Shown: in pieces, positions 13,961-50,030 of the stretch
Layout: every line of letters starts with the position of its first letter
How positions within the stretch are numbered: position 1 is the stretch's first letter
DNA from: Hirudinaria manillensis
Lineage: Eukaryota; Annelida; Clitellata; Hirudinida; Hirudinidae
DNA: 64,000 nt
Reading direction: 5' to 3'
Assembly: GCA_034509925.1 (NCBI GenBank)
Contig: CM067536.1
Coordinates: 7,670,001-7,734,000, forward strand
The notes under the pieces: generated by a model
What the model saw: only the letters and a program-made list of their open reading frames with translations
Told to the model about the DNA's origin: nothing
Databases searched by the model: none
Made by a program: the position numbers and the translations under genes

Positions 13961-14355
13961 TTCTATAATTATTTTTTAATTTATCAAAATGCTTTCTGAC
14001 GTGCGGCAATCACAAGCTGATAATTGATTGACCAAACTATGCGTTTTTCGATTGGAACGTTTAAACAAAAATAAATTTGTTTTATCACTATTTTATTTAA
14101 GATTTGAATAAAATTTAATTAATGTTTAATAAACTAAAAAAGATTTAAATTTAATTAATTAAATTAATTTTAATTTAATTAATGTTTAATAAACTTAATT
14201 TTTAAGCAATATAAAAATTTAATCAATATTATCAAATATTCAGAATCTTTCTTGGCGAAGTCGACAAATGAATTTGTGAATTGCAGACACACAAACAGAC
14301 GACAAGATCTAATCAGCCCAATATTCTAGAAATATCAGATTCTTAACATCTCGAA

Positions 14356-15564
14356 ATGACAACAACCAGCACAAATATCGGTGAACAAATGTCCACAATC
14401 CAGTTTCTTAAATTGGATGGCACGAGAAAGAGGATATCCATAGCCTCGAGTAAAACATTATCGCAGCTCTGGGATGAAATCGAACCTTTATGCGAAAAGG
14501 AAGACAGACACCATTATCACTTGGTCCAACTGTTTCCACGCAAACTCCTCGAAGATGAATCTTTGTCATCAACTCTGGCATCTCTTGGTCTCGTTCCAAC
14601 TGGAAATTTGGGATTCGAAAGGAGAAAAGAAACTCAGACTAAAGTAAGCGGCGAGGAAGTGCTGTCCTCCTCCATGTCTTCTCTCGGTCTCGCTGAAAAG
14701 AAACAGGAAGTCGCCATTGAACCTGAGACTGAAGAAAAGAAGAAACAGCGTGAACTTTACGAGGAAATTAGGAAAGAACAATTAAAGCTTCAAAAAGAGG
14801 ACAAAGTCATAAGAGAAAACCTTCTGAAAGAAATGAAAGCCGACAGGGAACTGACGGCTTTGAGGAAATTCTCAGCAATTCCCAAAACACCGGTCGAACC
14901 GGTAACAGGCCGTGATTACAAATCGAGAGAAGATGGCCAAACACAGATTCAATTGATAGGGGTAAACGGCTCTAAAACGCTGATTCTCATCGACGATAAA
15001 AAGACTATTTCCGATCTTTGGAACGAAATTGAAAGTCAATTCGAAGAAGAAAATAGAAGCGAATACAATTTGATCCATCCACGCCCTCGTAAAATTTATG
15101 ACGGCGAACATTTATCATCGAGTCTCCTTTCTTTAGGTCTGTCACCGAGTGCAACCCTAACGTTTGAATGTAAAGATGGTTCGATAGGCTACAACAAAGA
15201 GTTTCCTTCACTAGGGACAGCAGTTAATAAGAAAAACGGAAAGCCCCATCCGGTAAAACCAAAGCAGCAATTCCAGGATGTCAAGAGCTTCATTCGAATT
15301 TGTCTTCCTGACGATAAGAAAATGGAAATAACTGTAAGCGAGAGTAAGACAATCGCTGCAATCTGGGATAAAATCAAACTCGTAAATAAGAAATTGTGTA
15401 GGCGCTATCACCTGGCTCAAAGCAATGGCGATGTTGTTTATGGTGATGAAGCTTTCAATTTCACACTGGCCTCGCTTAGACTCTCACCAACTGCGGATCT
15501 TAAGTTGGTACCCAGAAAACAAATTATCGGTCGTAAACCCACCGAATGCCCGTACCAAAACTAG
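14356..15564 (+). CDS. Intronless protein with three UBX-like (ubiquitin-fold) domains, 402 aa
   Basis: UBX domains are ubiquitin-fold modules that usually bind the AAA ATPase p97/VCP; most family members carry one, at the C-terminus. Here three related units are visible: about residues 13-90, 195-272 and 310-386. Each has the order beta-hairpin, KT(L/I)xxLWDEI helix, a YHLxxxxPRK strand, and a closing SLxLxPxxxLxFE strand. Unit 1 keeps an FPR loop (LFPRKLL, residues 59-65), the p97-contact motif. Unit 2 has RPR (residues 243-245). Unit 3 has lost it. A charged Glu/Lys-rich segment (about 124-171, likely coiled coil) separates units 1 and 2, as in many UBXN proteins. The reading frame has no intron, unlike almost every other gene here, suggesting an old retrocopy. 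The start is the first ATG. An AATAAA lies at 15661. Specific orthologue not recognised. Confidence 0.75.
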   Translation: MTTTSTNIGEQMSTIQFLKLDGTRKRISIASSKTLSQLWDEIEPLCEKEDRHHYHLVQLFPRKLLEDESLSSTLASLGLVPTGNLGFERRKETQTKVSGEEVLSSSMSSLGLAEKKQEVAIEPETEEKKKQRELYEEIRKEQLKLQKEDKVIRENLLKEMKADRELTALRKFSAIPKTPVEPVTGRDYKSREDGQTQIQLIGVNGSKTLILIDDKKTISDLWNEIESQFEEENRSEYNLIHPRPRKIYDGEHLSSSLLSLGLSPSATLTFECKDGSIGYNKEFPSLGTAVNKKNGKPHPVKPKQQFQDVKSFIRICLPDDKKMEITVSESKTIAAIWDKIKLVNKKLCRRYHLAQSNGDVVYGDEAFNFTLASLRLSPTADLKLVPRKQIIGRKPTECPYQN

Positions 15565-17516: not shown

Positions 17517-20500
17517 TCAGACCAGAATGGCCTTGCTTATAATACTGCTATCAGTACTCCGTCCATTGCTCATACCGGCGTCATCCTTTTCCAGGATGAC
17601 CTGCGGCACTATGCCAGGAAAAGCTTGCAGGTCCGGACGGAATTCTCTCCCCGTCTGGAACGGGGCACGAACTCCGACCCCTGCCTTGGCCTCGTCGATG
17701 TCTTCGTATACGTGATCGCTCGCGTCCGACGGATTCCCGAAGTTCTTGTCGGGGATCTTCGGGTCCTTCCGGTAGGAGTCGATCATCCGATCTATCAGAT
17801 GGCGATCGGCAGACCCCGGGCCGAAAGCCCCCGCCTTGTCCGGGGATATGATGTACTTCGACGTCACTATGAGAGGTACGGGGGCGTGCCCTCCCAAAGC
17901 CCGGGCGTCGAGCACGCTGGCCGAGGTCTCGCCTCGGGAGGCATCCCTTTTCATGGACCGGACGGCAGAATGAAGGGGCAGTTCCGACCTTGGAGCGGCT
18001 TCGAATCCGTCGGCAGGTCGGCGGTTCGAACTCGTTCTTTCGTCAACGTTGACAATGGCGACGTCGCTGCCGTCTTCGCTGCTACTGGAACACCGGGCGG
18101 TCCTGAGGCCCCTCTCCTCTCCATTCAGCCAGCACAGGTTGGCCGAGCTCTGATTGCTGGCGCTCAGCGTCTGGTAGACGGTCACGTCTTCGTCCCGATT
18201 GGCCCCGTCGGAGACGGCCTTCTCCCTGTTTTTCCCCGGCGATTTCTGAGCCGTCCTCGCTTTGTTCCTCTTTGCCAGGCAGACGAATGCCAGCACCAGG
18301 AAGGCAGCGAACGAAAGACAGAGGATGGAGGAGCTGAGAGAGACGGCCAGGACGTTGATGCCGTTCTGAGGGGTAGAGTTGTGGTCTGGAAAAGTATTTA
18401 GGGAATTTTGTTGAAATTTGATGGAACACAAGCAATAACAAATGAGAAAAAAAACTTTCGCATTATTGCCTTTAACAAGTTTTAACAAACAAAAGTAATG
18501 TTATTATAAAGATGTAATATTATTACTGTTATTATTATTATTATTAATATTTGGTAATGCCATCTGTAGCAACAGTTTAATAATAAGGCTGTTATTAAAC
18601 AACACTAAAACACAACTCAGATAGTTATTAAACAACCTGCAGAATGCACCGAGGAATCGGGGTTCAAACCGTCTACCGAGGTCGGAAGGTCCGCCGCAAC
18701 CCCGTGACCCTCGGGGCATTCGACGGTTTCGTCCTCGTCCGATCCGTCCTCACAGTCGACTTTTCCGTCGCAAACTTTGGAGGCTTCCAAGCAAAGGTCA
18801 CCGTCGCATCGAAGGCCGTTCATCGAGAGGCATTCCGATGTCGGAGCTGGAGATAGACAGAAATCTATCGGTCGAGTGATTTTTAAACGAATGATAGTAA
18901 AATTCGTGAGGTTTGTGACTTTGATAATAAAAACAACCAAGCAATAATAATAATGTTAATAACTATAATATATATTATTATATACATATATATGAACAAT
19001 CCAACTAGACCGACTCGTGCAAGATTCTGGGTCGAGCAAAAAGCCGTCCAACATGATCTGAGAGTCACTTCTCAGAAGAGACTCGAGAAGAATCTGGAAA
19101 TGAAATCGTTCTGCATTTATTCATTTATTGTGACATTTAGTTCGATTAATTAGGTAATTGGTTAATAATTCCACTTTTAACAAACGACAAACACCGTCAT
19201 ATTCAATAATTGCAAATGCGGCAACGACAACGACTAGACGACCTTGTAAGGTTTGTCTCGTTGCAAAACGAGGTCGGCAGCGGCGGCGACCCAATTCCCT
19301 CGCAGGCGATTGGCCGCAGACCAGAGGGGCGGAGTCAAGTGGTCGTCGTGGCCAACGACTCGGACGTTGAGACGAGAGAGTCCCCGACCGTCGCCGTGGA
19401 AACGGTAGAAGAATTTGAAGCAGGCGTGGTAAAATGCGGAACCGTTTCCCTCGCGACGAATGCGGGTCGATCCGAGGTCACCCTCGAAGGAGGAGGTCAC
19501 TTGGGGACTGACGAGCAGAGACCTGGTCAGTGCCTGGTCTTCGAGAGCCACGGTTGTAATGTAACTGCCTGATTACAGTAAAACAGTGTTTTCATTTTAG
19601 AATTTAATTGATCCTGATTGATTGCCTTGTACTGTAACTTGAAATGTCAGGTACTAAGCGAATTGCATTTATGATCTAGGATCTCAGGTTTTGCAAATAA
19701 TTTAAGGTGTTGTAAATAATTTCAGCAATTATGAAAAAAAATAGTTACTAATTTTTTGAAAACTTCAATGAATTCGTGGAAAGGCTCCATTAATAAATTA
19801 AATTAAATTAACAGAAACAACATAAATATGGTTTCAATAAATCAAACAACAATAAATTCTTACAAATAGGAAATTAAAATCAGTAAATTTTGAATGAGTT
19901 TTGGTAACCTCTGAAGTCTTCTTCTTCGTGATCATGGTCTAAGGTTTCGACATGTCTCTGCCACTTCCCTTCTGCCATCAATGCTCCACCTCCATGCTCG
20001 AGTCTCTCCAAGGACAGCCAATCGCAGTTCGACGACTCAAAGTTGCATGAGATGTCACCTGGAATAGAAATCGAAATAACCACAAAATTGTTTCAGGAGT
20101 GCAATTCGCAAGGACAACGACGATTCCACTCACTCTTGCCGCAAGGTCCGACCGATATCGAGAGGTCGTCGATGGCCACGACCCCGAGGCTGCCCTCTGG
20201 CCAATGGGAATCGGGCACGTCGGTCGCTATGGCAACCTGGACCGAGGTAAGTCCCGATAGGCTGATCTCGGCCATTCGCCAGGTGGATGCTACTCCAGTG
20301 GGTCTAGATTCTTCGTGAAAAACAAGGAGTGTAATAATAATAATAGTAATAATAATAATACTAACAACAATAATAATAGTCATCATCATCAACACCACCT
20401 TTATCTTCAAGCACCACCTGAAGATCCACTTCTTCAGCAAAATTCACAATAGAGGCATAGAAATGCAAAAGCATCGATGGCACTATGAACATTGCACCTT

Positions 20501-22526
20501 ACGAATTACCACCATAGCGAGATCACCATCATCATCATCATCATCATCATCATTATTATTATTATTATTATTATTATCATCATCATCATCACCAGCACAA
20601 TGAACACTATCATCACTATCATAATTGCTTGCATTGATCAACTCGGTCTCCGATGACTCACCCCACTCTGCCAGTGCGTGCATCTGATCCCTGGATAGGA
20701 AGACCTTCAGACCTGGACTCTGGGGACTGGCAAAGAGGAACCAAAAGGTCAGGCAGTGTCGAAGGTCAGGGTTCAGAGGTATCTCCGGTCCGAGGAGCAA
20801 TGACTTCATGTTTTTAGAGGAGAGCAGGAATGATCCGCCTGCATTAATTAATTAATTATGATAATCCTGAATGCATGTCTTGGTAATCCTGAATATATAT
20901 TATAATTAATTAATATTAATAATAAATAAATCCATTAATTGAATAATAATAATCTAATAAATTGTTAATCATTATTATAATTACAGACAACAGGCAAAAA
21001 TAAATTCTATAAAACAAAGCTTAAATGTTCCAAACGTTGTCCTTAAATAAGAAAACATAATAATGAGGTCAAAACACACGCTCGCAACATCGCAATCCGA
21101 TCGTGACCTGCTCCGATGGTGTGATCGTCGATGAAAGTCGAACCGAGGAAGAGACTTTCCGTTCTCTTCCATCCTTCCGTATTGACGGGACAACTGTTTT
21201 CCCCGTCATCTTCTTTGCTGAAGTCAACGGTTTTTGCAATATTGAAAATCGAATACCGAGAAGTAATTGTCGATTATTCTTTAGTTAATTGATATTAATA
21301 ATTATACGATTAACATTAATAATTGACATTTAATAACTTGTTGAAAATTATTTATTTGTGTTTATGTAATAAATTATTTTATAAGTATTGGCATTATGCC
21401 AATACAATGAAGCAATCACCTCCTCCAGGAGAAGTCACATTTCATGAGAGTTTCACCTGAAAATGAATATAGGTCTTGAGATTTAAAATAAATAATACAT
21501 AATTTTATTAAAAGTCACTTTTATTTGCAACTAATAATCAACAATTATGAATATTTTTTTTGTGATTGCAAGATTATTTCAATAGCAAACTTTTGAAATT
21601 AACCAGTTTGCCTCATTTCTGCTTGAATTATCTCTTTTTTAATCAAAAGAAATTATCTGTGATTGAAATGATTAAATTGTCATGGCTAAATTTAAAAACT
21701 GCTCAGTTTCTGAGACTTCTTTGTGCGAATCTTTCAGTCATTTGAAACAACTTAAGAGCATTTCTTATTGCTCCGAGGTGAACCGTGCTTTGTATCGCTA
21801 TCATAAAAGTATTTTCACGGCACGCGTCATAAAATCTCGGGAGACGAAGAGACAAAGGAACGCACCCGTCTCTGCACGTCTGCCAGGTTCAGTTGTAGGT
21901 TCGACCTCCGATGAATCGAGGATCTTGTAAGTCGCGTAAAAACCTCTTCCATTGGAGCTGTTGTCGGAAGAGAACTTCAAGACGAATTTGTTCTTCAAAT
22001 TCCCTGCAAATTCAGAAATTATGTGAGAGAACCAATGAAATGTGCTGATTTATAAATCTTAAAAGTCTCTCGTTGAGTGAAATCCAAATATTTTATTGTG
22101 AAACTGTTACCAACTTTTAAAAACTGAAAACTCAAAAAGGCACAAAATCAATTATAAACTAAGTCCACATTGATTATTTTAGTGCAGGGCATCACTAACA
22201 ACAAGAATATCCAGATGCCAAACTAGACTGTGGATAGTCTGTGTCCGCCATTCCGTATTGCCAGACTCCATTGGAGCAATACTTGATAGGGGGTGAAGAT
22301 TGGAACTCCAGAAAGTCAAACAAACAAAACGGAACGTTCAGTTCAATATCGAACTTATGAAACATGAAGCATATTTTTGCTCCTTGGTTCGGAGGGCGAG
22401 ATTTCCCGTAAAATGTGTATCGACAGGCCAGATTGTGTCGGTACTCAAATGGATAATTGTAGCTCGATAGAAAGCCTTCACTTTCCAATACTTCAGAATA
22501 AAAACGATCACACTCGGTGTTTACAA
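17517..22526 (-). CDS. Single-pass receptor: CUB-MAM-MAM-LDLa-TM-cytoplasmic tail (5' end not resolved)
   Basis: Exons in transcript order: 22526-22203, 22003-21866, 21456-21420, 21217-21108, 20838-20662, 20310-20134, 20058-19909, 19568-19243, 19093-19015, 18846-18637, 18385-17517. Phases match at every junction, giving about 864 aa. Seen: a CUB domain (first two exons; SEGFLSSYNYP, LKFSSD, GFYATYKIL); MAM 1 over the next four exons (CDFSW ... GW ... DHTIG ... AIDDLSISVGPC); MAM 2 over three (CNFESSNCDW ... SCT); one LDLa with six Cys and the calcium-binding DCEDGSDE; a hydrophobic membrane segment (about residues 586-612); and a 250-residue Ser-rich tail with VYEDID, ending AILV, which fits a class II PDZ ligand. 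The most 3' CUB donor (22203) is the least certain. Nearly all introns are phase 1, as in shuffled extracellular modules. The signal peptide exon was not found. It resembles neuropilin/NETO-type co-receptors in style, but the order is not one I know. Confidence 0.8.
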
Positions 22527-22611
22527 CTGCATTAATGTAAAAATTAGTTAGACATCTTTAACTGTGCAGCATGAATATTTAATAAATTTTTTCGATCCTG
22601 TAGAAAAAAAA

Positions 22612-24051: not shown

Positions 24052-27000
24052 TTAAAACATGTTTAAAGTGTTTGGTGTCCAAAAGCCTACGTTGTCAATT
24101 TCGTCTCCATGAAGCATCTTTAACAAGTCTTTCTTCAGGTGTTCGTTATGCTCAGATAGGATCAGGTAGGGACTGCGTTAACATATATTTATTATATTTG
24201 GACATTAATTTGATAAGTTAACCATTGTCTCACCATTTATTCATAACTGTTTTAAACCACCACGGCAAGGCACCACCAGAATGATCGAAAAGTCTTTTCC
24301 CAATGAATTTCATTGCAAAGCTGTAGTAGAACCTGAAAATCCTACCATCCATTCCTTCAGTGTCTCCATTTATCTTATGAAATTAAGAAAATTGAAACAA
24401 AATTTATAATTTAGTTTGAAATGCTCTGATCTAAATTTGAGAACTAACATTGCCAAGTTCTTTAGATTTCTTAAAGATTTCGTGCAACTTGGAAGTGATA
24501 TATAGGCATTTAAGGAAGTCGTCGTACAACATATATTTTTCAATCGTATAATCGCATTCGTCATATTCCGTTGGTTCTTCGATGTTGTCCCGTGGAATAT
24601 GGGGTTCAATATCGTTGCAGTGTCGGTTATCTATGAATCTCATTAATTCTTCGGGGCAGTCACAATTCTTTAATTTAAATTGAATTTGATAAATTATTAG
24701 TGTAGTAGCAAAGTATAATAATTTAATAGCTTATTTACATACTACAATAATTCATCGCTGATGTAATAAATTATTACTAAAACGTACAATAATACTATGG
24801 AAAACCCATCCGAATGTACTCAGACGCTCAATAGCTAAGAAAATGTCAGAGCCACATTCTGCTTCTTCCTCTACACATCGACGTGCCTAATAAAATGAAT
24901 AATTCATGTAAATAGCATAAAATAAATTTTTCATTTATCTATATTTATACATGCACATGTCCCAGGATGAAATGCTTTGCTCGATGTAAGTTTTCTTCTT
25001 CGTTTGTGGCTGATTTGAAATACTGGTACAAATAATCAACTCTAATATATTGGAATACACTCTTAGCCAAAAATATGTAGTTTTTATCGTGAATTTTCAT
25101 CTGAATACAGAGGCAATAAATGATGAATCATTAAAATCAGTCAAAATGCACTGTTTAAATAATTTACTATGAAACGGACGAGTGAATGTAATTAATATAA
25201 TGCAGAGACTTATCAATATAATGCTTAAACCTTACTTACCTGTTGAATGTCTATGTATGACTTAAAGAGACTTTTGAATTCTTCAGAGGGTTTGATTTTA
25301 ATTTGTTCGACCAAGATCCCACCTAACAACATCGGGAAAGTGAAATTCAATATTAAGAAATATTCACTAGATCCATTTAACATATGAAATTAATAGAATA
25401 ATAATAGTAGTAGGTTTCACAAATTTTTTTTACATTGGTGAGAGATCCAAGATGTTATCCGTTTGTTTTGTGCGTTCTTAGCTTCTGGAATGTTTTTGAG
25501 TTTTGGTAAATACATATACATCTCGATCGCTACAACGAGAAAATTTTCATATAGCAACGTTGTAAAAGTTGTTATTTGATTGATAAGATTATTAAATGAT
25601 GTTTCACAGTTCAGACATACTTCCCACTAATTTTCCAAGGTTTTTATCCATGGCTCTCTTATGCCAGTCTACCGCCACTTTTAGAAATTTGATTCCACGG
25701 CATATATGCATTATATTTCGATCGAAGAATAAATATTGGATGGGGCTGTTAAGATAAATAAACATTTATCAGTTTCGAATTTCATACATTAAGATAAAAA
25801 CGTACCAAATAGCATATTGGTATTGAAAAGGAATTCTCCAGCCGTCTAAATCCATTTCAAAATTTTCATCAGTAAAATGTTCTAATAATTGAACAAATGC
25901 CGTGTCCAAGATGCGGCACTTCATTTTCAAGAACTGAAAACACAAATAACGATTTTTGAATTTGTTAAGTTTAATTCGACATATTTCCATTTTATCCCGT
26001 ATTTCCGATTTTTGCCTGATTTAGTTATTCGTGACGAAAATATTTGAAGACCATTGACAAAAAGAATATTTAAATTCATACCAAGCGACCGTAGATAGCT
26101 TGAAACGACTTATAAGTATTTTCCACAAGGAACCTCGTTGATTCTTCTGAACAGTTACCTGTTGATACGAATTGTTTTCAAAAGGAGTCAAACAATTTTA
26201 TCAATTGCATTCAAATTCAGTATGTTATTATTATGTGTCAGTGATATTAGTTATTTACTAACTCGATTTGTTTATGAGAGGTATGTCTTGACCTGGATAT
26301 AATATATCATCTAGACTGAAGATATACGGATCCGATTTGCAGGGCAAGAGAGAACTGAAATTTTAATAAATAAATTATGAATGACGAAATCTAGTCGCAA
26401 CTTGGTGCTGAGCAAAAAATATGCTGCTATATGTCTTAAAAGAATCACTACGACAGAGTTCATTTTTTGTTACGAACAAATAAGGTAATAGGTAATGGCT
26501 TCTTTATGAATTGTAGAGATTTTGAGGTATATTATTGATAACGACAGATAAAAGAAAAAGCCGACCTCAGAATAGTCGCGGTTTTCTTAAATTCTTCAAT
26601 AGTTTCCTCTGGCACTTCCTACGTAATAGTGGAGAAAAAAGGATTGAAGGAACAAATTATCTAAGATAACTCATTAAGTTTTAGCATTGCAATTATAAGA
26701 TATAAAAAATTAAATTTCATTCCAACCTTTGAATCTGGCAGAAGTGGCTTGCTCAATTCTCTTAATGAATCTATTACAAATTGTGCCGCAGTTTCTATAA
26801 TGGATTTCAAAATATTAACTAATTTAATTCACGTTGGTTATATTTTCAAAGACTAATTTAAATATTTTTCAAAGACTTGGATGAGCAGTCACCAAAGAAA
26901 ATAGTTGGGCGCTAAGTATGCGATATTCGTACACATCTACTTAATGCTTTACATGTATTTTAATTATCATCTTAACTATGATAAACACTTTTGATTTTAC

Positions 27001-27440
27001 CGTTGAAATTATTTTGAAGCTTATTCTCATTCATTTTCACAATGGTCAAATGCTTGCTATAGAACGATGTCTTATATAAATATATTGGATGTCTGCAACT
27101 TGCCCAAATACAAACCAAAAACTTTAATTTCGAAATGTCAATATAAAATATAGCATTAAATTTTTAAAATTTAATAGATTACAATGTGAAATAAAATTTC
27201 ACGCCAACTCGGACGCCGTTTATAATTAGAGGCAAGTTATAGTTAGGGTTTTTCAATCGAGGGTCGTAGATGTCGTGATTGAATTTTTTTTAAATTTTTA
27301 CTCAAACGTGAATTATGAGCTCGAAAATTAATTCGCAAAACCTGATATTCTTTGTATAGATATAAAGTTTTCCAATCAGAAGTAAAAGTCCCCCACACCA
27401 AAAGCCCCATTGAAATGCAACATATACATAAAGGAATCAT
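24052..27440 (-). CDS. Unrecognised 14-exon (or more) gene, tandem copy 1
   Basis: I do not recognise this family. Exons in transcript order, all phases consistent: 27092-27001, 26794-26727, 26618-26566, 26354-26263, 26158-26082, 25933-25806, 25745-25621, 25529-25434, 25322-25240, 25100-24957, 24886-24788, 24667-24449, 24373-24234, 24172-24052. They encode about 512 residues, mostly helix-forming, with some twelve Cys and many aromatic residues. Landmarks are WRIPFQYQYAI, VDWHKRAMDK, an acidic EEPTEYDECDY segment, and the C-terminus GFWTPNTLNMF. A likely first exon from ATG 27440 reads MIPLCICCISMGLLV, a plausible signal peptide. It joins in phase only through a weak donor (GT|GTGGGG), so the start is uncertain. 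No membrane segment is visible inside. If the first exon is right, the protein is secreted. Confidence 0.6.
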
Positions 27441-28208
27441 AACTGGATCGGACGTAATGGAAACTCAGTTCACGAGTTTCAGCTAAATTGACACAACAAG
27501 CGTTGATTTATAATTTCATGATAAAGTCTGATAATCATAAGCTGCACATAGTAGCCATTAAAAGATATTGATGCCTAATCCATTTCTGTGAATGGTGGCG
27601 GTACTGATATGTTAAGACGACACAATCAAATAAAAGACAACAGGCGCAGAATATCGATCGCCTTAGTGAAAATGTCTTTGCTTCTTGTTTTTGTTATAGG
27701 TGTTTTCCTTCTTTGGTTGTTCGCGGTCTATGTGGTCTATGTGGCAAAGGTGTTACATCTAGGTTTAGGATCCTTTGTTCTTGATTAAGAAATTGCTGAT
27801 TTACAGTAATATCCACAAATCTTCAAACGCCTTCATTTACGAAAATTTTGTTTCTTGTAAGACAATAAAAAGTGGATTGAACGAGACAATTCTTCCAATA
27901 TAAACAAGGGTAACAACGGCGATAACAATATTCACTGTAAAAGTTTTTGATCGAGACGGAGTGAATATTTTATAATTGAGATCAATTTTAATAGCTTTAT
28001 TGAATTTAATTTTCATCTACTTCATTCTTTCAATGACTCTGTAGCGCACTATATATATATCTTTTGATGAGATCCGTTTAATTTCGTGAACCGTTTATAG
28101 CAAAGTACAACTTTTCCCAGGTGGCCTAAAAAGACAAATAATAATAAATAAATAAATAAAGTGAATCCACTTAAATGGAGCTATTTCAAGTTGGTTAAAG
28201 TATGCATA

Positions 28209-31200
28209 TTAAAACATGTTTAAAGTGTTGGGTGTCCAAAAGCCTACGTTGTCAATTTCGTCTCCATGAAGCATCTTTAACAAGTCTTTTTTCAGGTGTT
28301 CGTTATGCTCAGATAGGATCAGGTAGGGACTGCGTTAACATATATTTATTATATTTGGACATTAATTTGATAAGTTAACCATTGTCTCACCATTTATTCA
28401 TAACTGTTTTAAACCACCACGGCAAGGCACCACCAGAATGATCGAAAAGTCTTTTCCCAATAAATTTCATTGCAAAGCGGTAGTATAACCTGAAAATCCT
28501 ACCATCCATTCCTTCAGTGTCTCCATTTATCTAATGAAATTAAGAAAATTGAAACAAAATTTATAATTTAGTTTGAAATGCTCTGATCTAAATTTGAGAA
28601 CTAACATTGCCAAGTTCTTTAGATTTCTTAAAGATTTCGTGCAACTTGGAAGTGATATATAGGCATTTAAGGAAGTCGTCGTACAACATATATTTTTCAA
28701 TCGTATAATCGCATTCGTCATATTCCGTTGGTTCTTCGATGTTGTCCCGTGGAATATGGGGTTCAATATCGTTGCAGTGTCGGTTATCTATGAATCTCAT
28801 TAATTCTTCGGGGCAGTCACAATTCTTTAATTTAAATTGAATTTGATAAATTATTAGTGTAGTAGCAAAGTCTAATAATTTAATAACTTATTTACATACT
28901 ACAATAATTCATCGCTGATGTAATAAATTATTACTAAAACGTACAATAATACTATGGAAAACTCCTCCGAATGTACTCAGACGCTCAATAGCTAAGAAAA
29001 TGTCAGAGCCACATTCTGCTTCTTCCTCTACACATCGACGTGCCTAATAAAATGAATAATTCATGTAAATAGCATAAAATAAATTTTTCATTTATCTATA
29101 TTTATACATGCACATGTCCCAGGATGAAATGCTTTGCTCGATGTAAGTTTTCTTCTTCGTTTGTGGCTGATTTGAAATACTGGTACAAATAATCAACTCT
29201 AATATATTGGAATACACTCTTAGCCAAAAATATGTAGTTTTTATCGTGAATTTTCATCTGAAAATAGAGGCAATAAATGATGAATCATTAAAATCAGTCA
29301 AAATGCACTGTTTAAATAATTTACTATGAAACGGACGAGTGAATGTAATTAATATAATGCAGAGACTTATCAATATAATGCTTAAACCTTACTTACCTGT
29401 TGAATGTTTATGTATGACTTATAGTCACTTTTAAATTCTTTAGAGGGTTTGATTTTAATTTGTTCGACCAAGATCCCACCTAACAACATCGGGAAAGTGA
29501 AATTCAATATTAAGAAATATTCACTAGATCCATTTAACATATGAAATTAATAGAATAATAATAGTAGTAGGTTTCACAAATTTTTTTTACATTGGTGAGA
29601 GATCCAAGATGTTATCCGTTTGTTTTGTGCGTTCTTAGCTTCTGGAATGTTTTTGAGTTTTGGTAAATACATATACATCTGGATCGCTACAACGAGAAAA
29701 TTTTCATATAGCAACGTTGTAAAAGTTGTTATTTGATTGATAAGATTATTAAATGATGTTTCACAGTTCAGACATACTTCCCACTAATTTTCCAAGGTTT
29801 TTATCCATGGCTCTCTTATGCCAGTCTACCGCCACTTTTAGAAATTTGATTCCACGGCATATATGCATTATATTTCGATCGAAGAATAAATATGGGATGG
29901 GGCTGTTAAGATAAATAAACATTTATCAGTTTCGAATTTCATACATTAAGTAAGATAAAAACGTACCAAATAGCATATTGGTATCGCAAAGGAATTCTCC
30001 AGCCGTTTAAATCCATTTCAAAATTTTCATCAGTAAAATGTTCTAATAATTGAATAAAGGCCGTGTCAATGATGCGGCACTTCATTTTCAAGAACTGAAA
30101 ACACAAATAACGATTTTTGAATTTGTTAAGTTTAATTCGACATATTTCCATTTTATCCCGTATTTCCGATTTTTGCCTGATTTAGTTACTCGTGACGAAA
30201 ATATTTGAAGACCATTGACAAAAAGAATATTTAAATTCATACCAAGCGACCGTAGATAGCTTGAAACGACTTATAAGTATTTTCCACAAGGAACCTCGTT
30301 GATTCTTCTGAACAGTTACCTGTTGATACGAATTGTTTTCAAAAGGAGTCAAACAATTTTATCAATTGCATTCAAATTCAGTATGTTATTATTATGTGTC
30401 AGTGATATTAGTTATTTACTAACTCGATTTGTTTATGAGAGGTATGTCTTGACCTGGATATAATATATCATCTAGACTGAAGATATACGGATCCGATTTG
30501 CAGGGCAAGAGAGAACTGAAATTTTAATAAATAAATTATGAATGACGAAATCTAGTCGCAACTTGTTGCTGAGCAAAAAATATGCTGCTCTATGTCTTAA
30601 AAGAATCATTACGACAGAGTTCATTTTTGTTACGAACAAATAAGGTAATAGGTAATGGCTTCTTTATGAATTGTAGAGATTTTGAGGTATATTATTGATA
30701 ACGACAGATAAAAGAAAAAGCCGACCTCAGAATAGTCGCGGTTTTCTTAAATTCTTCAATAGTTTCCTCTGGCACTTCCTACGTAATTGTAGAGAAAAAA
30801 GGATTGAAGGAACAAATTATCTAAGATAACTCATTAAGTTTTAGCATTGCAATTATAAGATATAAAAAATTAAATTTAATTCCAACCTCTGAATCTGGCA
30901 GAAGTGGCTTGCTCAATTCTCTTAATGAATCTATTACAAATTGTGCCGCAGTTTCTATAATGGATTTCAAAATATTAACTAATTTAATTCACGTTGGTTA
31001 TATTTTTAAAGACTAATTTAAATATTTTTCAAAGACTTGGATGAGCAGTCACCAAAGAAAATAGTTGGGCGCTAAGTATGCGATATTCGTACACATCTAC
31101 TTAATGCTTTACATGTATTTTAATTATCATCTTAACTATGATAAACACTTTTGATTTTACCGTTGAAATTATTTTGAAGCTTATTCTCATTCATTTTCAC

Positions 31201-31252
31201 AATGGTCAAATGCTTGCTATAGAACGATGTCTTATATAAATATATTGGATGT
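28209..31252 (-). CDS. Unrecognised gene, tandem copy 2 (first exon degraded)
   Basis: Same 14 exons as copy 1 shifted by about 4157-4161: the stop is at 28209-28211, the HPIY exon starts at 31252, and all frames and splice sites are intact. Replacements relative to copy 1 include K to E (30900 region), Q to P, E to Q, D to N, F to L and Q to R near 30000, E to K and L to D near 29430, W to G near 28968, and F to L plus S to R near 28485. I count only about five silent changes. The exon matching copy 1's putative signal peptide (31630-31760) has lost the ATG and contains a stop. Copy 2 therefore either uses another start or is becoming a pseudogene. Confidence 0.5.
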
Positions 31253-37672: not shown

Positions 37673-40600
37673 CTACTGCCAGTCGGCGTCGTCCTCGTCG
37701 TCGCAATCGTCGTCGTCGTCTTCGTCGGAGTCGCTGCAGACGTTCTTCCGCCTCTTGGGCTTCTTCTTGACCTTCTTGGAGGTCGATTGCTGCCCGTGGG
37801 AGGCTCGAACCGAGGTGCCCTGTCGGTTGTTGGTCTTCCTCGATTTGCCCGAAGAAGGAGCAGACGAACGCTTGGCAATCGCCTGGTGCTGTCGGGTGCG
37901 GAAGGATCGAGTGAGAAAGCGGACTACTTTCAGTTAGGCATTGAAACGGAGGTTAGGATCGAGAGTTATCGATGCCGTCAAATAATTTTATTTTATCGTA
38001 AGAATTATCTACCGATTATCATCAATTCACGATCATTTTATACCTATTATTCACCAGAGAAAAGAAAATGTAGACAGACTGAACTGACCTGTGGTCCGTT
38101 GGGGAATGTGCTGCTGTTGTTGACGATGCTGTTGCCATCTTGAAGGTTGTTGGCTGCGGTCGTTGGCGAAGCGTCATCGTCCATGTCCTCCTTGTCTATA
38201 CTGGCCATCAGTTCTTTGAACTGGAAAGTATATTAATAATAAAACACATTAAACATATTATCACCATTTAAATGCTCAGCCAGCTAATTGCAGAAGAAGA
38301 ATTAAACAGCAAATGTTGACTTATGTATTGTATCATATCATAATCGTCGATGTCATCATCTTCTCACGTTTAGGTACGCATTGACGATCTCCCTCCTGTG
38401 CTCGGCATTCCTCTGGCACAGCGGTTCCGCTCTGGCGAGGAGTTCCAGGACCTGGTTGGGCTGGAACTTCACGCCGTGCTTTCGGTTCACGGACTTCTCG
38501 TAGACCTTGAAGTCCATCGGAGAGTACTGCTGGATTTTACTGGGGGAAGACAACAAAGACGTCACTAAGGGATTTGCTTCTTAAACTAATGAATGAAAAG
38601 ATAGCCCATGGATCTCAGGAAAAGCCACCTCCTCATATCAATCATATCAAGGTTAGGGGTTATAATCGCTCTTATCTCTTAATTAGTTAAGTAATTAGCC
38701 GACAGACAGATCTGTCGCAACGCGACCGAAGGTGCTCACTTGTCCGTGAATCCGTACATCTCCTTGAGGTGTTGCTTGAGTACAAGCAGGAGGAGGTAAC
38801 CTTGCAAAGACGTGTACAATTCGACCAGGGAGTCTCCCTCGACCGGAATCAGGGCTGGAGAGAAGGAATACTGTACGATGAGCAGACGATACTTTCAACT
38901 TATCTACTTAATCACCTATCTCTGTATTTATTTTACACGTAGCACGTGATTGTCTATCCATCCATTGAATTTATATACATTTATGTAACAATGGGTTGTG
39001 AAATCCAATAACCCTGGACATCATTTGATCATAAATTTCATATATATATAGGGAACTTGAGGACCATGAATGACACCTCCATCCCAGACGAACTGACCTA
39101 ATAAGGTTTCCGGGTCGTCCTCTTCGTCGTCGTCGTCCTCGTCGTACCTCTGCACCGGGGGTCGCTGCTGTTCCTTCGTTTGCTGGTCGTGAAGCTGAGC
39201 CTGAGGAGTCGACGACGATTCGCATTTCATCTCCTCCTTCGGTTCTGCCTTCACGGTCACTCCGTCTTCGAGCGACTGGGGTTCGGGTTTCGTCTCTCCC
39301 TCCCCGGCGGCGTCGCCGTCTTCCTCCCTCTTCACGGAGGACGTTCCGTTCTCGAGGGGGCACGGGTGGACCGGAGGAGGGTAGAAGCCCTGGGAGAGCA
39401 TGGTTCGTGAGTAACAAAATTGAAAGGTATTCAAATGATAACAAAGTTGGATTATTTTAAAATTAAAGTTAGTTATCGAGTTATGTAATTGAAGTGATGA
39501 CAAAGACAACGATTAGAAACAGACCTCTTTAAAGGACTGGAGGAGATTGAAACCAGATACGGACAGAATGATGTCAATTTGGTGGATTATGAAGAGAGGC
39601 TCGTCCTGCAATTGGTAGGAGAAATAGGCCAGGTTGTCTGCCATGTACAAAAGCTCCTCTAGTGGTGTTTTCTGAAATAAATTATGCAAATTCAATCAAC
39701 AGTCATCTAGCAATGCATTGATTGACTCAAAACAAAATGTCTCTCCTATCCTAATAATAAAACAACATTGACATCAATTATCAATTCAAATTGAAAATGA
39801 GTGAACTGTTTTAGTTTATTTAAAAGAGTCAATTTGACTTGTTATTAATAAATGTGTAAGAAAACTCAACAAAATAAACAAAAATTAGAAAGCCAAGATC
39901 TTTGAAGAGCTTACGTCTTCAAACATCCTGAGGGCATTCATGACCACGACCCTCCTGTTGCTCCTGTTGGTGCGTACGAGGGAGTAGATGTACGAGTTGA
40001 GGGAGGTCAGGGTCCCGTTCTCCTCGACCCGAACCCCTCTCAGCTGCTGACCTCCGGGCTGCTGCCGGTCAACGTGCTGGTGGAGCAGCTTCTGTAGACG
40101 ACACGACATCTTTATGCCCTGCATGGCCCTTGCCTGTAATGTAACATAACATAACTAGCAATGGATAATGATTTAGATTATGATCATCGAGAAGTTGTGA
40201 ATTAATAGACGTCGGGAGACGGTCTGGACCCGGAAATTGGTTTCAAAATCGAGGTGTGGACCAAGACGGAGCATCCACATGATCGTCATCAGGATCAATG
40301 ACAACCGGCATCATTACCACCACTGCTACCAACATCAGCATCGTCGTCACCCACCTGCACAAAGCCAGGATACTTCTTGTCGATCTCCATTATTTGCTTG
40401 TCTGCCTTCAATCTGATGTTGATGTTGGGATCCGAGCCCATGCAGATCAACTGTGCCATGCACTGGACATACACATGAATGGTTATTTATTTCTATTAAT
40501 TAATTATTATTAGGTGGCAAATCATATTATTATTATTATTATAATTAGTTTAAACATTTAATTTCTTAAGATGCCTTTCCACCTATTATTCTTATGTTGG

Positions 40601-43600
40601 TCAACAAGTAAGGATGGTGTCATATTTTATAGTTCAGTGATGCCTAGGAAACTTGCGATGCAGATGGCTCAAAAACATGCACAGATGTTGAAGACATGTA
40701 TAGGTGAAGAGTGCAGTACATCAAGTACAAAGGACGTTGTCACCTGTTGCGGATGTACGAGGCCCTGGTTGAGTATGAGTGTGACCACCTCCAGGGCTGC
40801 CATGCGCACCTGCGGATCCATATGGAAGAACGACTCCAGGATCTGCTTCAGGTAGATCTGTATGATCGTGCTGGCCATACTAGGAATGGAAACAGGCAAA
40901 ATGTAAACATTGCACATCAATTAGAATACACAAAAGGCATTAATAACATCTTAATCAGTGATTTCTCTGTGACTTTAGAACTAATCCATCATAAGACATC
41001 ATTGTGTTAGACCAGATAGTAATAATAAGGATCGTCATCATCACCATCATCATTCTCACTCACCCAGACTGCACGTCTCCCATCTCCTTGAGATTTTCCT
41101 TGTCATGAAGCTTCCTCCCTGATCAAAAGATCATTATCATTACCACCTGGCAACTATAACTATAAGCCACAAAGTCCAACGAGGTCAATTAGTCCATTGA
41201 AGGATGAAGGACCGGCAGGAACCAATCACGACTAACGATACAAAAAAAATCCTCGAAGGAGGCGCCTTACACTCTGCGTCGGCTTTGGCCATCTTGACTT
41301 CTTCTTCGACGAGGTACTCCTTGATGTTGTTGAGGACCTGACAGCACATGTTCGACTCGACGCCGGGGTCCGTCAGCATCTTCTGGTAGATGTCGCGCAA
41401 CTCCTTCCCGAGCATCAGCTCGTAGTACCTGGTCGTCAGGCAACCTGGATGACGGACAGACGGATCGATGATCGATCGAGCGAACAACTGACGAAAGTAA
41501 GCGGGGTGGAGTTGGTTTATTGAAACGAGCAAGCCCATCGCTTGATGATGTCGATGGTTCTGATGTTCAAAATTCGACTCAAGAAACCAAGCCATTGCAA
41601 ATGAAGAGATAATTGAGTCGTTATTAGAAATTTGATGAACGAATTTGTTTATAAATATGGCATGATAAATAACAGGCTGTAATAAATGCAAATGAAATTA
41701 AATCTACGAGAACATATCTATGCAGAAACCCTACCAAGGGCAGCAAGAGCCTGGACTTTGATGTCTGGAAAATCAATGAAGTGCAAAAGAAGTTCAAAGA
41801 CCTTTTCCTTGATGCAGGACATCTGGTGACAAAAAGTAAACACACACTTCAAATTCCTATTGAATCCATCATTACTTCACCACCAACAAGACTTCACACA
41901 AAGAATCGACTGCCAACAAGCTCACCATGATGAATGCAGTTTAATAATAAATAATATGCAAATCTACGAGCACTGCCTTTACTATCATAATCATCATCAC
42001 CACCATTAGTATCATAATCATCATCACCACCTCTCTGAACTCCTCAAACTCTGGAGCGTCGAAGTCAAACTGCTTGCACAGTTGACCGACGACGAAGAGC
42101 GACCTCCTGAGGCAGGACTTGACGTTGTCGCCCATTAAACCGAAGTGTAGCTCCCTGATCCTGGTCGAGATGCCTGTTATGAAAGAGGTGACAGAGGGTC
42201 ATGCATGGGTGGCAATGATGCTTCAACGATGACGTCATGTCACACATGGAAGGTGTTGACCGTGGCTTTAAGTGAACATGATGGTGGCGGTTGCAATAGG
42301 CAGAGGACGACTACCGTAGAACTTGTTGAAGCAGTCGAGGATGAGTTTGTAGTTGTGCGTGATGTCCCTGACTATGGCCCCCAGGCAGCTTATGCCACTC
42401 TGTATGACCTGTCCAAGACGTCGATAAAGTTATATTACATAGCTAAATAATAACGACAGTTATAATAAGACTAATGATATTAACGACAATGACAAGTCTA
42501 TTCGACTAATCAATGATTTATTTATCAATCGAGAATAAGTCAACAACTGAAAAGTCAACCGACCACAGCTCCCTGCCTGAGCACGAGTTTCGAGATGTCC
42601 TCTTCGAGCTGAGCGAGGAAGGACTCCCCCGGGTGCTCCATGAGCGGAACTGCCAACTCCAGCATCTTCACCACGTTGCTCGCTATCATGATGTCGGATT
42701 TTGTCTGGAACGGGAGTAACCGAGAACTTTTTTTATATTAAAAATTTTATTTTAAAATAATTTTATTTGTACAAATAAGCATTAAATTATTTATTTATTT
42801 ATTTTAACGAACGGCATTAAGAAGACACTTTGCGATTTCATGATTATTATCCGACTTACCCTAAAGAAATGAATTAAGAACATTGAAAGGTCATTGAAAC
42901 TTGAGATTTTGCTAGCTTTATGGTTCATTGTCATCATTCTTATATTGGGAAACTATTGGCAACAACATATTGGCAACAGTAATGTCGGGAGTAATGGCAA
43001 CCACGACAACCGCTTCAACCAACCATGAACTTGATGTTGAGGTACGGGTGAATCAACGTGCAGTGCTTGACCAGAAGGATCGGCTTGACCTTGCAGAAGA
43101 GGTACAAGGTCGAAAAGCAGGCAGCCAATCGGGAATTGGTGGCGTCTGAGCGACCGATGGTTAATTCGTAAATAAATAAAATAAATTTAATCATTTTGTT
43201 TTGTCTTTTCCCATGATTGATTAACATACGATTACATCTTCCTGAGTGAAAAACAACAACGACAACAACCTGCATTGGTCTCCAACCGAAGGACGTTGTC
43301 GACAAGGCAATCGACAATCTGTCGACAGGACTTGAGGACTGGCTTCTCCTTCGAACCCTCCTCAGCTTTCAAAAGCTGCAAGTAAGGGGTCAAAGTGTTT
43401 CAGTTTCTTGAACTTCTCAGTGAATGAGTAGTGAGACCGAATGAATAGCAAGTGAGTGAATAGTAAAATGAGTGAGCAAGTGAGAGTGAGTAGTAAATGG
43501 GTGAGCATTGAGAGTGAGTAGTAAATGGGTGAGTGAGTGGGTTTTAAAATAAAATTAGACAAACGTTTTCCATGAGCCTCTCCAGCCACTCGAAGCCGAT

Positions 43601-46600
43601 GCTCGTGGAAGCGATGGATGCGACCTCGGTGATGTTGAGCACCTTTTGGAGGAGCGACGATGCGTCCTTGTCTCTGCAAGGGGAGAACCACATGCTCTGG
43701 AATGTTTCGTTCACGAGTTTCTGCCGAGAGAGAAGTTGCATCGTCATGTGCGCTCGAGGTATGGATACTGCTCTTAAATGGCTAACGAAGACGGTAATTA
43801 ACTAGAGCCGAGATAGGAAATGTTTACGTCGCCATTGTAATTTACGTTGTAAAGCTTTAGTTGTTGATAAATTTTCTTGATGAGCAATACCTTTGATTGT
43901 TTGATCGAGAGAAAGATCAAGTGCACCTACCCTAATCCCCTCCTCATCGTTGACCCTCCTGACCATTTTGACGCACATCTCGGGCACCTTGGGGAAGTTC
44001 GGCTGCTCCAAGCAGACGTCTCTGAAGATTTTGATGACCCTCTTCCTGACGCTGATGCCCGTGTCCTGTGATTTCGCAACAAAGTCAATGAGCAAGATTA
44101 ATTATTATCAACATAATTCACCTTTTATAAAAAAAAATGGTGATACATAACTTATAAATAAGTTATTATTATTACTATTACTATTATTATTTAAAATAAT
44201 TTAATAACGGTCATATTATTACTTAAAATAATGATTAAAATCATCATTGTGATTTAAAAAAACAATTAATTCCACGAGAGCAGACCAGTATCCTCTCGGA
44301 CAGCATGTCGTAGTACTGCGCAGTCAGTTCGGGTCGGATGAGGACGAACTTCCCCACCAGTTCGATGGCAGCCTCCCTCACGGAGGTTGAAGAGTCTATG
44401 AAGCGGGTGTGGACGGCCAGCTGCATGTCTTTCTGTGATCGAGTGGGATGAATACGATTGAGTATATAATATAATTTACCATAATATAATATAATATAAT
44501 ATTTATAATACACTATACAATGATATCAACATTTCAAATGTAAATTGAGGAGACCTGCTAATTATTTGTTATTATAGTTTTGGGTCTGTTTCCTCTCAGT
44601 TATAAATTCATACACAGGGCAAATCACCATCGGTGACATTATCGCCACCATCACAATCGCTAATAATCGTCGTTGTCATGACGTCAAGCATGAATTCCGA
44701 AACCACCCAACATCAACATCCCCCTCCCCATCTCCAGCACGTACAAGCCTCACACGACTCACCTTCGCCAGGACACCAGGATCTGCTTCGACGACTGCAG
44801 CTAAGCACTTGAGAGCCCTCGATCGGACCGCCACTGCCGTGTCGTTCAGTACTTTCAGGATCTGACACGAGGATAGGATAGGAATGATTTTAAAAGGAAA
44901 ATTAATCGAATGCTAATTAGTATTAATTGGTAATACTAATTATATAATACTAATTAGTATTAATTAATTAAATTAAACAAACCCGCTCGTTCCTCAAAAT
45001 AGCAAGACTAAGGCATTTTTCATAAAAAAATGCGATATTACCACAGCAAAAATAATAAAAATGATGATAAAAATATGGTCAACTGATACCTGTGTGAGAT
45101 AGATGTCAAAGCTCTGGGAGAAGGGCCTATCTGATGCAAGGTACCTGGCCACGAGGAGTGCACTATCATAGTCCAATTTCGTCTTGGATTGCCTGTTGTC
45201 AGTAAATATATTACATTAAAATATTATTTATAATAATATAAATATTATTATATATAATATAAATATTATTATATATAATATAAATATTATTATATATAAT
45301 ATAAATATTATTATGTATAATATAAATATTATTATAAATAATGAATTATTATCATTGTTTACTATTTTATGACTTTTATGAAGATATTCTAACCTGATAG
45401 ATGAGGTGAACTTCTTGAACTTTGCAGCCTCCTTGAATAGGAACTGCTTTCTCTTCTCGACCTCCAGCTGGGTAACCTTCAGCCACTCCATCTCGTGCGA
45501 CGTCTTCCGAGCGATTCCGGACTCCTCGTCGTAGTCTTCCTCCTCGGTCTCCTCCGAGTCCGTGTCTTCCTCGTCCTCCTCGGATTCGTCTCCGTCGTCG
45601 TCCTGCCGACGGGAATTCCGAGGTTTCCGTTTCTTCGGCTTCTTGGGGCGGCTCTTCGAACACTGCCGCTGCTTCCTGGGCGTGGACGTCCTGGAGCCGC
45701 CTTCTCTCCTCTCCTGCTCCTCCATCCTCTTCGTCTTCATCTCGATCTCCTTGCCGCAGTCCCTCAGCCACTGGGCGATGTAGAAACGACGGGCAAACTG
45801 GAGGTAGAGGATGGCAAGAGGTCAGTCGTGCAATTCCTCACTCGTGCCGGTAAAGTATTTTTATGCATATTCATTGCAGCATTCAAATTGATTAAATAAA
45901 ACAAAAACAAAACAAAATACTGACCGTAAGGGCCGGATCGGCTTCCGTATTCGATGCCAGGTACTCCAGGAGGGCCTTCTGAAGACTCTGGGTCCTGTTG
46001 ATTTCGCTCGTCTTTTGCTCGTTCGTTCCCTCGTTCTCGCCGCCTGCGTCCTTTGCGGCCGCCGCGTCGTCATCTTCGTCGCTGTCCAAGACTTTCGCTC
46101 TGCTCGGCCGCTTGGTCTCTTCTTCCCTCTCGGCCACCCTCGACGCTATGTCGTCCAGGGTCCCCTCGTCCAGTCGACTCGACACGGCGTCCTTTCTCAG
46201 GCGGGCCGCGACGATCCCCAGGTAGTCGAGCGACGCCACCCTGAGCGACATTTCGACGGACTTGCTGCTGAACTGCCTCACGAGCAGGTGCCCGAGGAGG
46301 CTGAGCAGCAGCTCGGCCGCGGGCCACTCGGGCTTGTTGACGGTCGAGAGGAGGTCGTTGACGAAGTTTCCGAAGAGGCTCCTGTAGTCGTCCTCCTCCT
46401 TGGCCGAGCACTTCCCGAGGAAGACGTGCAGGAAGTTGTGGGCCGTCGACATCGCCGTCTCGTACGACGACATGGCGACGACCTCCGCGTCGGCGACGGC
46501 CGCGGACTTCTTCCTCTTCTTCTTCTCCCTCCTCCCCCTTTCGACGTCGTCTCCCGTCGCTCCGTCGTCCGCCTCCTCGTCGTCGTCCTCCTCCTCGATC

Positions 46601-48031
46601 CGCTCCTCGCGACCGAAAGGCAACTCGACGACGCACTGGATCAGCTGGAGCGCCAGGGCCGTGACCATCTGGATGTTCTCGTTGACGTTCAGCCTGTAGC
46701 TTCGGAGGTTCTTCTTGGATGAAGGCAGTCTGGCCAGCGAGGAGAGGATATCCTCGAGTATCAACTGACGATGCTTCTCGTACTTGCTGAATATCTGAAC
46801 ACGGACGAGAGAAAGTGGATGAGAGAAAGGTCAACAAAAGGTCAATGAAAGGTTAACGGTTCATTTGTGAGAGTGAGAGTGTTGTGTTTTATATTCTAAT
46901 TATATAATACTTTGTTCTTTACTGAAAATTAATTGATAATGCTAACATTGGTGACCAGCTTGAGGGCGTTGAGCTGCAGTTCTGGAATGTTCTCAACAAA
47001 GAATGGAGATACGGAGAGAGAAGACATCTGAATTAAAGACAAAAAAATTAATAAGAGCAATAACAGCAATCATTTTAATAATAATAATTTTAATAATAAT
47101 AATAATACAAGAAATATATAAGAATAATAATATAAAAAATACAATAATAATAAACGTCAACAATCTTTGATTCAAGCTGATACGATGTTTTACATCATAG
47201 TCTTAATCACTTTCACTTCAACTAGCATCATCATCATCATCATCATCATTGCTACCATCATCATCATCATCATCACCTGTAGAACTATGGTGTCCGTCAG
47301 GTCTTGGATGTCGACAAGTTCCGCTAGCAGGGAGGTGACGTCAGTGAGTTTGTTGTAGATGGAAAGGATGGTCCTGTCCTTCATGCTCATCATGGAGGCC
47401 TTCGACCTCTTCATCTTCATGCTCGACTGACCCCCTGTGGGAGAGCAGGTGCCCGAAATGAGTCACATGATGGTGGGGCATAGCTACCATACTTCACCAT
47501 ACCACGTAACAACAATAATAGCAAGACTTCCAGCACATAACAAAATTTGAAGATGGAAATTATAAAATCAAAACAAAAACTTAAAGAGAAGAATCAAACA
47601 GCAATCGATTAATGATTAACGTACAAACGACCAATATTTGTAACAATCAATCAATCGATTGATCGATCGATCAAAGGCAAGGACCGACCTTTGCCGCTGG
47701 GGTCCACCCGGTAAACCGGGTCGAAGACGGGATAGATGAAGTTGCGGAGGTGGTTCCTCGTGAACCTGACGACCTTGTCTATGACGTCTTCGATGAAGAC
47801 CTGCTTCGGCATGTCCTTGGACGTCATGACCAGCATGGCAGCCAGGCATGCGTCCAGACCGCACGTCACGTGCTCCAGGGTCAGCTCCCTGAAGAGGTCG
47901 TCCCCTACCTCGTCGTCCTGGTAACGATTATTGAGATTAGGTTTTTATTTTTTTTTAACTCCATTATATTTAAGAACTTATGTCATCTATTACATTATAA
48001 TAATAGCATTAACATATGATGATATATATGA

Positions 48032-48067
<36 letters not shown>

Positions 48068-49982: not shown

Positions 49983-50030
<48 letters not shown>

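Follow-up and report, generated by a model that had tools for sequence, protein, structure and literature searches.

In the HECT E3 ubiquitin ligase TRIP12, acceptor ubiquitins are held by the ARM repeats, the HEL-UBL domain serves as scaffold and catalysis falls to the HECT domain (PMC12440805, PMC13196369); UFD4 is described as the yeast homologue of TRIP12 (PMC13196369). The present analysis deals with 64,000 nucleotides of the leech Hirudinaria manillensis (GCA_034509925.1, contig CM067536.1, forward-strand positions 7,670,001 to 7,734,000), called the window below, whose minus strand carries two tandem copies of one 14-exon gene, copy 1 at 24052-27034 and copy 2 at 28209-31194. The two genes make up a minor share of a family spread through the genome that very probably descends from an intron-containing TRIP12-type HECT E3 gene, or from a forebear common to both, having retained the helical arm in front of the HECT domain but not the domain itself.

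The C-terminal end of the family proteins reads LPWWF...KKCPFLF, which resembles the stretch preceding the HECT domain in TRIP12-like ligases. A profile-profile comparison with hhalign is in line with this: 25 family proteins, set against the pre-HECT part of six intronless HECT open reading frames (ORFs) of the leech, gave a score of 59.9 (Prob 91.6, E 8.3e-7) over 374 columns, joining family columns 7-414 with pre-HECT columns 123-535. The controls stayed far lower, with a score of 16.7 when either side was reversed and a mean of 15.1 (standard deviation 2.3, maximum 21.9) over 200 column shuffles. The N part of the family profile alone aligned with the pre-HECT N part (score about 39, Prob 41-45) and the C part with the last 220 pre-HECT columns (score 37, Prob 70-75). 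When the family profile was compared directly with the human TRIP12 segment, the score was 32.7 (Prob 54), against 15.0 on reversal and a mean of 12.8 and maximum of 24.9 in 300 shuffles; with leech and human TRIP12 segments together it rose to 34.6 (Prob 62), against 10.5 on reversal and a shuffle maximum of 26.7. These scores above the shuffle maxima indicate that the helical segment directly before the HECT domain, the HEL part, is present in the family.

The six ORFs used in this comparison (L053-L058) are single open frames of 794-959 residues, all with the HECT domain family PF00632. L053, the sole one compared whole with the Protein Data Bank (PDB), matched TRIP12 at 9e-75 and UFD4 second at 8e-42, and the pre-HECT profile of all six found TRIP12 at 1.5e-4, with no other PDB match below E 0.4. 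This last match breaks up into three collinear pieces (5.9, 0.5 and 13.6 bits), of which only the final one carries weight. A genome search for HECT domains gave at least 145 matches; among the 73 best, which were examined, 69 fall within open frames of 600 residues or more, and in 64 of those the matched part holds no stop. There are thus at least 64 long, apparently intronless HECT frames in the genome, for example on scaffolds C3, C10, C12 and C13, and those tested are TRIP12-type. By comparison, a mussel survey reports 22 HECT genes (PMC11353290).

A second line of evidence comes from intron positions. The human TRIP12 segment, searched against the genome, returned 26 matches at E up to 10, HECT genes and two TRIP12-like genes being among them. 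The best match, split over two exons, is a gene on scaffold C12 (L060) whose HECT exons follow on the same strand about 2.4 kb further downstream (C12:1795976-1796565). In this C12 gene, the residues ...GILFE are followed by a phase-0 intron, a 143-nt exon ending ...NLPTWLGQIART, a phase-2 intron inside the next codon, and then SFLLPFETR. In the window gene, a phase-0 intron is followed by the 140-nt exon 13 ending ...LPWWFKTVMNK and a phase-2 intron inside a cysteine codon, and the distance from LPxW to the split codon is 12 residues both here (LPWW) and in the C12 gene (LPTW). The spliced models of the family agree: in all 23 the last intron splits the same codon in the same phase, at the cysteine of CPFL, and it falls in the alignment column of the TRIP12 intron in all 23 and in all three alignment modes, the human TRIP12 residue there also being cysteine. 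The preceding intron has phase 0 in 22 of the 23 models, and the penultimate exon measures 122-146 nt. With one exact and one probable shared intron beside the best-matching segment, descent is the likeliest cause of the resemblance, and the shared introns suggest that the gene from which the family arose bore introns and was not one of the intronless HECT copies.

A number of observations weigh against this ancestry or narrow its basis. The intron comparison covers two introns in the 601 bases of the C12 gene that were read, and the phase-0 intron falls in the TRIP12 column in one of the three alignment modes (20/23 models), most models lying 10 columns away in the remaining two, whose alignments are gappy. 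A second TRIP12-like place exists on scaffold C2, and the C12 gene is at most a candidate for the one-to-one orthologue. None of the 26 matches to the human TRIP12 segment lies at a family place, and the direct TRIP12 matches of the family profile span 52-53 columns. Twelve family sequences compared with whole HECT proteins reached the same segment with a Prob of 9.9 (E 0.0032); BLASTP of copy 1, L005, L017 and L022 against the six HECT ORFs was not significant, and the profile of the same twelve rows found nothing in PDB at E up to 10, UFD4 included. The N-terminal half is linked to the TRIP12 ARM region by 5.9 bits (i-Evalue about 50), and its putative ARM homology is weakly supported. Finally, two of the 21 models used as further family members (L034_1 and L035_1) are probably fusions of neighbouring tandem copies.

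The HECT domain itself is missing from the family as far as it could be followed. PF00632 is absent from all 12 family rows in the Pfam search, and no WWE domain was among the Pfam families found for these rows at E up to 1. In each of the 21 further models a stop follows 0-44 codons past the shared C-terminus, although splicing past that stop may occur. Among the HECT matches listed, none lies on scaffold C11, which carries the window, and the closest approach of a HECT exon to a family anchor (59 anchors compared) is 5.7 kb, with the exon on the opposite strand. Since no HECT domain was found, the family lacks the defining feature of a HECT E3 and is not classed as one; it is best described as a putatively TRIP12-derived, HECT-less family.

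The extent of the family was established by searching the genome (148.43 Mb in 23 contigs) with the joined window protein, which gave 102 matches at E up to 10. After 63 typed anchors had been merged, the family comprises 59 places on 11 scaffolds (C1-C11), both window genes included; anchors were accepted to E 0.04, the weak ones being unverified, and in a few cases separate places may represent exons of a single gene. A spliced aligner run on 20 regions produced 23 models, of which one (L044_3) has stops inside and 21 served as further members. Three full-length copies have no introns and retain open frames, namely L005 (475 residues) and the pair L017/L022 (535 residues). One of these intronless HECT-less copies, on scaffold C10, is adjoined by a ricin-B-lectin-like ORF of 137 residues (L017:3532-3945, minus strand). 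Divergence is large, the other 11 rows of the 12-row alignment being 23-38% identical to copy 1. In the tree, copies 1 and 2 cluster, with L035 and L039 nearest to them and L017/L022 apart on a long branch; according to a warning of the tree program, some long-branch joins may be false, including that of L035 with L039.

The gene model of the pair can be given in full, all exons lying on the minus strand. Exon 1 (34 nt; 27001-27034 in copy 1, with the start ATG at 27034, and 31161-31194 in copy 2) is the least supported, being seen in the two window copies alone. It is followed by exon 2 (68 nt; 26727-26794 and 30887-30954), exon 3 (53 nt; 26566-26618 and 30726-30778), exon 4 with the motif SD..DDILYP (62 nt; 26293-26354 and 30454-30515), exon 5 (77 nt; 26082-26158 and 30243-30319), exon 6 (128 nt; 25806-25933 and 29967-30094), exon 7 (125 nt; 25621-25745 and 29778-29902) and exon 8 with NIPEAK..KRITSW (96 nt; 25434-25529 and 29591-29686). 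Then come exon 9 (83 nt; 25240-25322 and 29397-29479), exon 10 (144 nt; 24957-25100 and 29114-29257), exon 11 (99 nt; 24788-24886 and 28945-29043) and exon 12 (219 nt; 24449-24667 and 28606-28824), which carries HCNDIEP and TIEK..YDDFLK and is the strongest match in the genome search. Exon 13 (24234-24373 and 28391-28530), which carries LPWWF, pairs in the alignment with the TRIP12 exon that precedes the HECT domain, and exon 14 (121 nt; 24052-24172 and 28209-28329) contains CPYL and the stop, the phase-2 intron in front of it splitting a cysteine codon as at the aligned TRIP12 codon.

The two copies agree closely. Their exon lengths and phases are equal, the alignments of all 14 exons contain no gap column, all 13 introns of each copy have GT-AG borders, and exons 1, 3, 4, 5, 10 and 12 are identical in sequence. 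The three longest direct repeats have 96-99% identity at a spacing of 4157-4161 bases, and chance is therefore excluded as the origin of the tandem likeness. The view, held in the sequence-only reading, that the pair was duplicated with its introns and has 14 exons is thereby confirmed, whereas its protein of roughly 510 residues has to be shortened to 482 in each copy, 15 of which differ between the two. That agreement in splice phase speaks for a real gene also gains from the 21 other loci that splice into relatives, although these models were built with a profile containing the window gene and are not fully independent. Spliced alignment of copy 1, with a four-sequence profile that included both copies, recovered the same exon chain except at the borders of exons 11 and 12, where the aligner ended exon 11 four bases later and started exon 12 at 24648. 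The borders reported above were retained because the residues NCDCPEELMRF fit the family consensus.

Substitutions between the copies number 23 in 1449 aligned exon bases and 13 in 1533 intron bases, and identity fades about 200 bp beyond the gene on both sides. Exons 6 and 9 hold 13 of the 23 exon differences (7/128 and 6/83 bases) while their flanking introns are nearly identical; with 13/211 against 10/1238 bases elsewhere, the Fisher test gives 2.8e-6, or about 2.5e-4 after multiplication by the 91 possible exon pairs, the test having been picked after inspection of the data. Positive selection or gene conversion may account for the excess, and in seven other gene pairs, two of them with a gene in common, other blocks vary more than exons 6 and 9. 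The ratio of nonsynonymous to synonymous rates (dN/dS) is 0.51-0.77, below 1 in all nine close comparisons at synonymous divergence (dS) up to 0.37, some of these sharing a gene and hence not all being independent. Pooled over the seven pairs, the ratio of nonsynonymous to synonymous proportions (pN/pS) is low in exons 4 (0.36), 8 (0.28), 12 (0.42) and 14 (0.23), intermediate in exons 2, 3, 5 and 10 (0.61-0.65) and near neutral in exons 6, 7, 9, 11 and 13 (0.75-1.09), exon 11 being poorly aligned. Constraint across the family proteins is thus a mosaic, and from the two kinds of ratio together it follows that the family is maintained at the protein level, combining a fixed frame with looser segments.

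This pattern bears on the idea that the places are decaying partial duplicates, pseudogenes without a product. The window copies taken by themselves would allow it, as their 17 nonsynonymous and 6 synonymous differences (dN/dS 0.67) are too few to separate from neutral evolution, and one of the 23 models carries stops; with open frames and splice sites kept at 21 other loci, dN/dS below 1 in every close comparison and long intronless copies still open, we regard it as quite improbable. The picture of an orphan, secreted, cysteine-rich and lineage-specific family without older relatives, to which the sequence-only reading inclined, can point to the lack of any significant Pfam, NCBIfam, PHROGs or PDB match by sequence. 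It is disfavoured by the start frame, the profiles and the introns, and appears very improbable indeed: cysteine makes up 2.9% of copy 1, and the signal peptide proposed for copy 1 is unsupported because no earlier in-frame methionine precedes the start methionine before a stop is reached. The N-terminus MNENKLQNNFN... shows no hydrophobic leader by eye, no predictor having been run and alternative first exons being possible. Descent from another large HECT E3 (UFD4-, HECTD1-, HUWE1- or UPL-like), or resemblance without common descent, draws on the pre-HECT motif, presumably similar in several such ligases, on UFD4 as the second match of a HECT ORF, and on several direct comparisons that were weak or empty. 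It is nevertheless an improbable account, given that the pre-HECT profile singles out TRIP12 among the solved HECT ligases and that one intron agrees in codon and phase with the leech TRIP12-type gene, only TRIP12-type introns having been compared.

The main rival accepts the TRIP12 origin and holds that the arm was co-opted for an unrelated task, for example as a structural, signalling or immune receptor-like scaffold, with no tie to ubiquitin left. The large divergence from copy 1, the long branches and the faint link to the ubiquitin-binding ARM region would fit such a change of use; the strong constraint on the blocks near the former HECT junction (exons 14 and 12) and the coexistence of expanded TRIP12-type ligases in the same genome would not, and we find it somewhat unlikely. 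Overall, TRIP12-type ancestry combined with a non-catalytic role of the arm is probably the best explanation. The mechanism that goes with it, taken alone, is put forward tentatively. Family proteins would sit in the cytosol or nucleus and, having no HECT cysteine, would perform no HECT-type ubiquitin transfer; a TRIP12-like arm could still bind what the ligase binds, that is, substrates or ubiquitin chains. As decoys or adaptors, such arms might compete with the full TRIP12-type ligases, likewise expanded in the genome, or recruit them. More speculative still, and in our judgement rather unlikely, is a two-part, fast-evolving leech ubiquitin system: compact intronless TRIP12-type ligases and their HECT-less decoy or adaptor arms, several dozen of each, with a constrained scaffold and variable contact segments, would serve inside the cell as a recognition repertoire directed at pathogens or selfish elements.

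Searches of Pfam, NCBIfam, PHROGs and, directly, PDB with the family sequences gave no significant match. The weak matches (SEO_C, DUF3748, L10 and others; best PHROGs E 0.0036) were taken as chance because each concerns a single row of 12 and the rows disagree, and a PDB match to NDUEG8 (E 0.077) was likewise taken as chance. A viral origin was set aside after one scan of viral contigs, in which 35 pattern matches included no relative. The family libraries and PDB do leave the protein unplaced, as the sequence-only reading had it, but the profile-profile comparison and a shared intron position group it with TRIP12-type HECT ligases. Its candidacy as an undescribed family holds to the same degree: the family is real, amplified through the genome and unrecognised by the libraries used, yet it has recognisable relatives. 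No published account of it was found in the literature searched, the scope of which left out most subscription journals and all supplements. By term look-up, 'HECT' and 'E3 ubiquitin' are absent from PMC10671345, and 'ubiquitin', 'HECT' and 'TRIP12' from PMC10087013.

Some other features were seen around the pair and elsewhere in the genome. The plus strand of the window has an intronless ORF of 405 residues with repeated UBX domains at 14347-15564, and multi-UBX frames recur on scaffold C11 at 7905408-7907333 and 8011010-8014525. On the minus strand, matches to LDL-receptor class A and CUB domains at 18617-18955 and 22195-22557 perhaps mark what we assume to be a Neto-like gene, and at about 39000-52000 exons presumably belong to a gene resembling the Nipped-B/SCC2 cohesin loader; the one exon scanned in that last region gave a weak Tra1_ring match only. 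For the hirudin family, a single match passed the cut-off genome-wide, in a short frame interrupted by a stop within the matched part (C4:12249547-12249618, minus strand). Many exons of Cys-loop receptors occur in the genome; the arthropod cuticle family did not turn up, in a search whose controls gave no signal either.

Among known systems, the aphid bicycle genes have many small exons, fast evolution and no annotated domain, as the leech family does. Their products, however, are secreted proteins with CYC motifs, whereas the leech proteins show no leader and have a TRIP12-like C-terminus; a bicycle-like effector was therefore set aside, no motif search having been run. With UFD4 (PDB 8J1P) the link is indirect, through its place as second match of the HECT ORF L053; UFD4 has a HECT domain and is not found by the family profile. 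The intronless HECT ORFs of the leech share with the family a collinear pre-HECT arm by profile comparison, and differ in holding a HECT domain in one uninterrupted frame and in giving no significant BLASTP match. With human TRIP12 (PDB 9GKM, 9GKN and 9KEN) and the leech C12 gene, the family has in common the arm's C-terminal segment [LI]PxW........CPFLF and the preceding helices, and, with the C12 gene, the same-codon phase-2 intron and a phase-0 intron before it. It is set apart from TRIP12 by the missing HECT and WWE domains, a very divergent N-terminal part and a length of 482 residues, compared with 1565 and 1609 in the PDB chains. Taken together, these results would turn an apparent orphan pair into a traceable event: the loss of the catalytic domain from a ubiquitin ligase of a conserved kind and the spread of the arm to dozens of places. 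An intron position can point to ancestry where family libraries see nothing, and the family members are naturally occurring variants in which the role of a TRIP12-like arm can be studied apart from catalysis.

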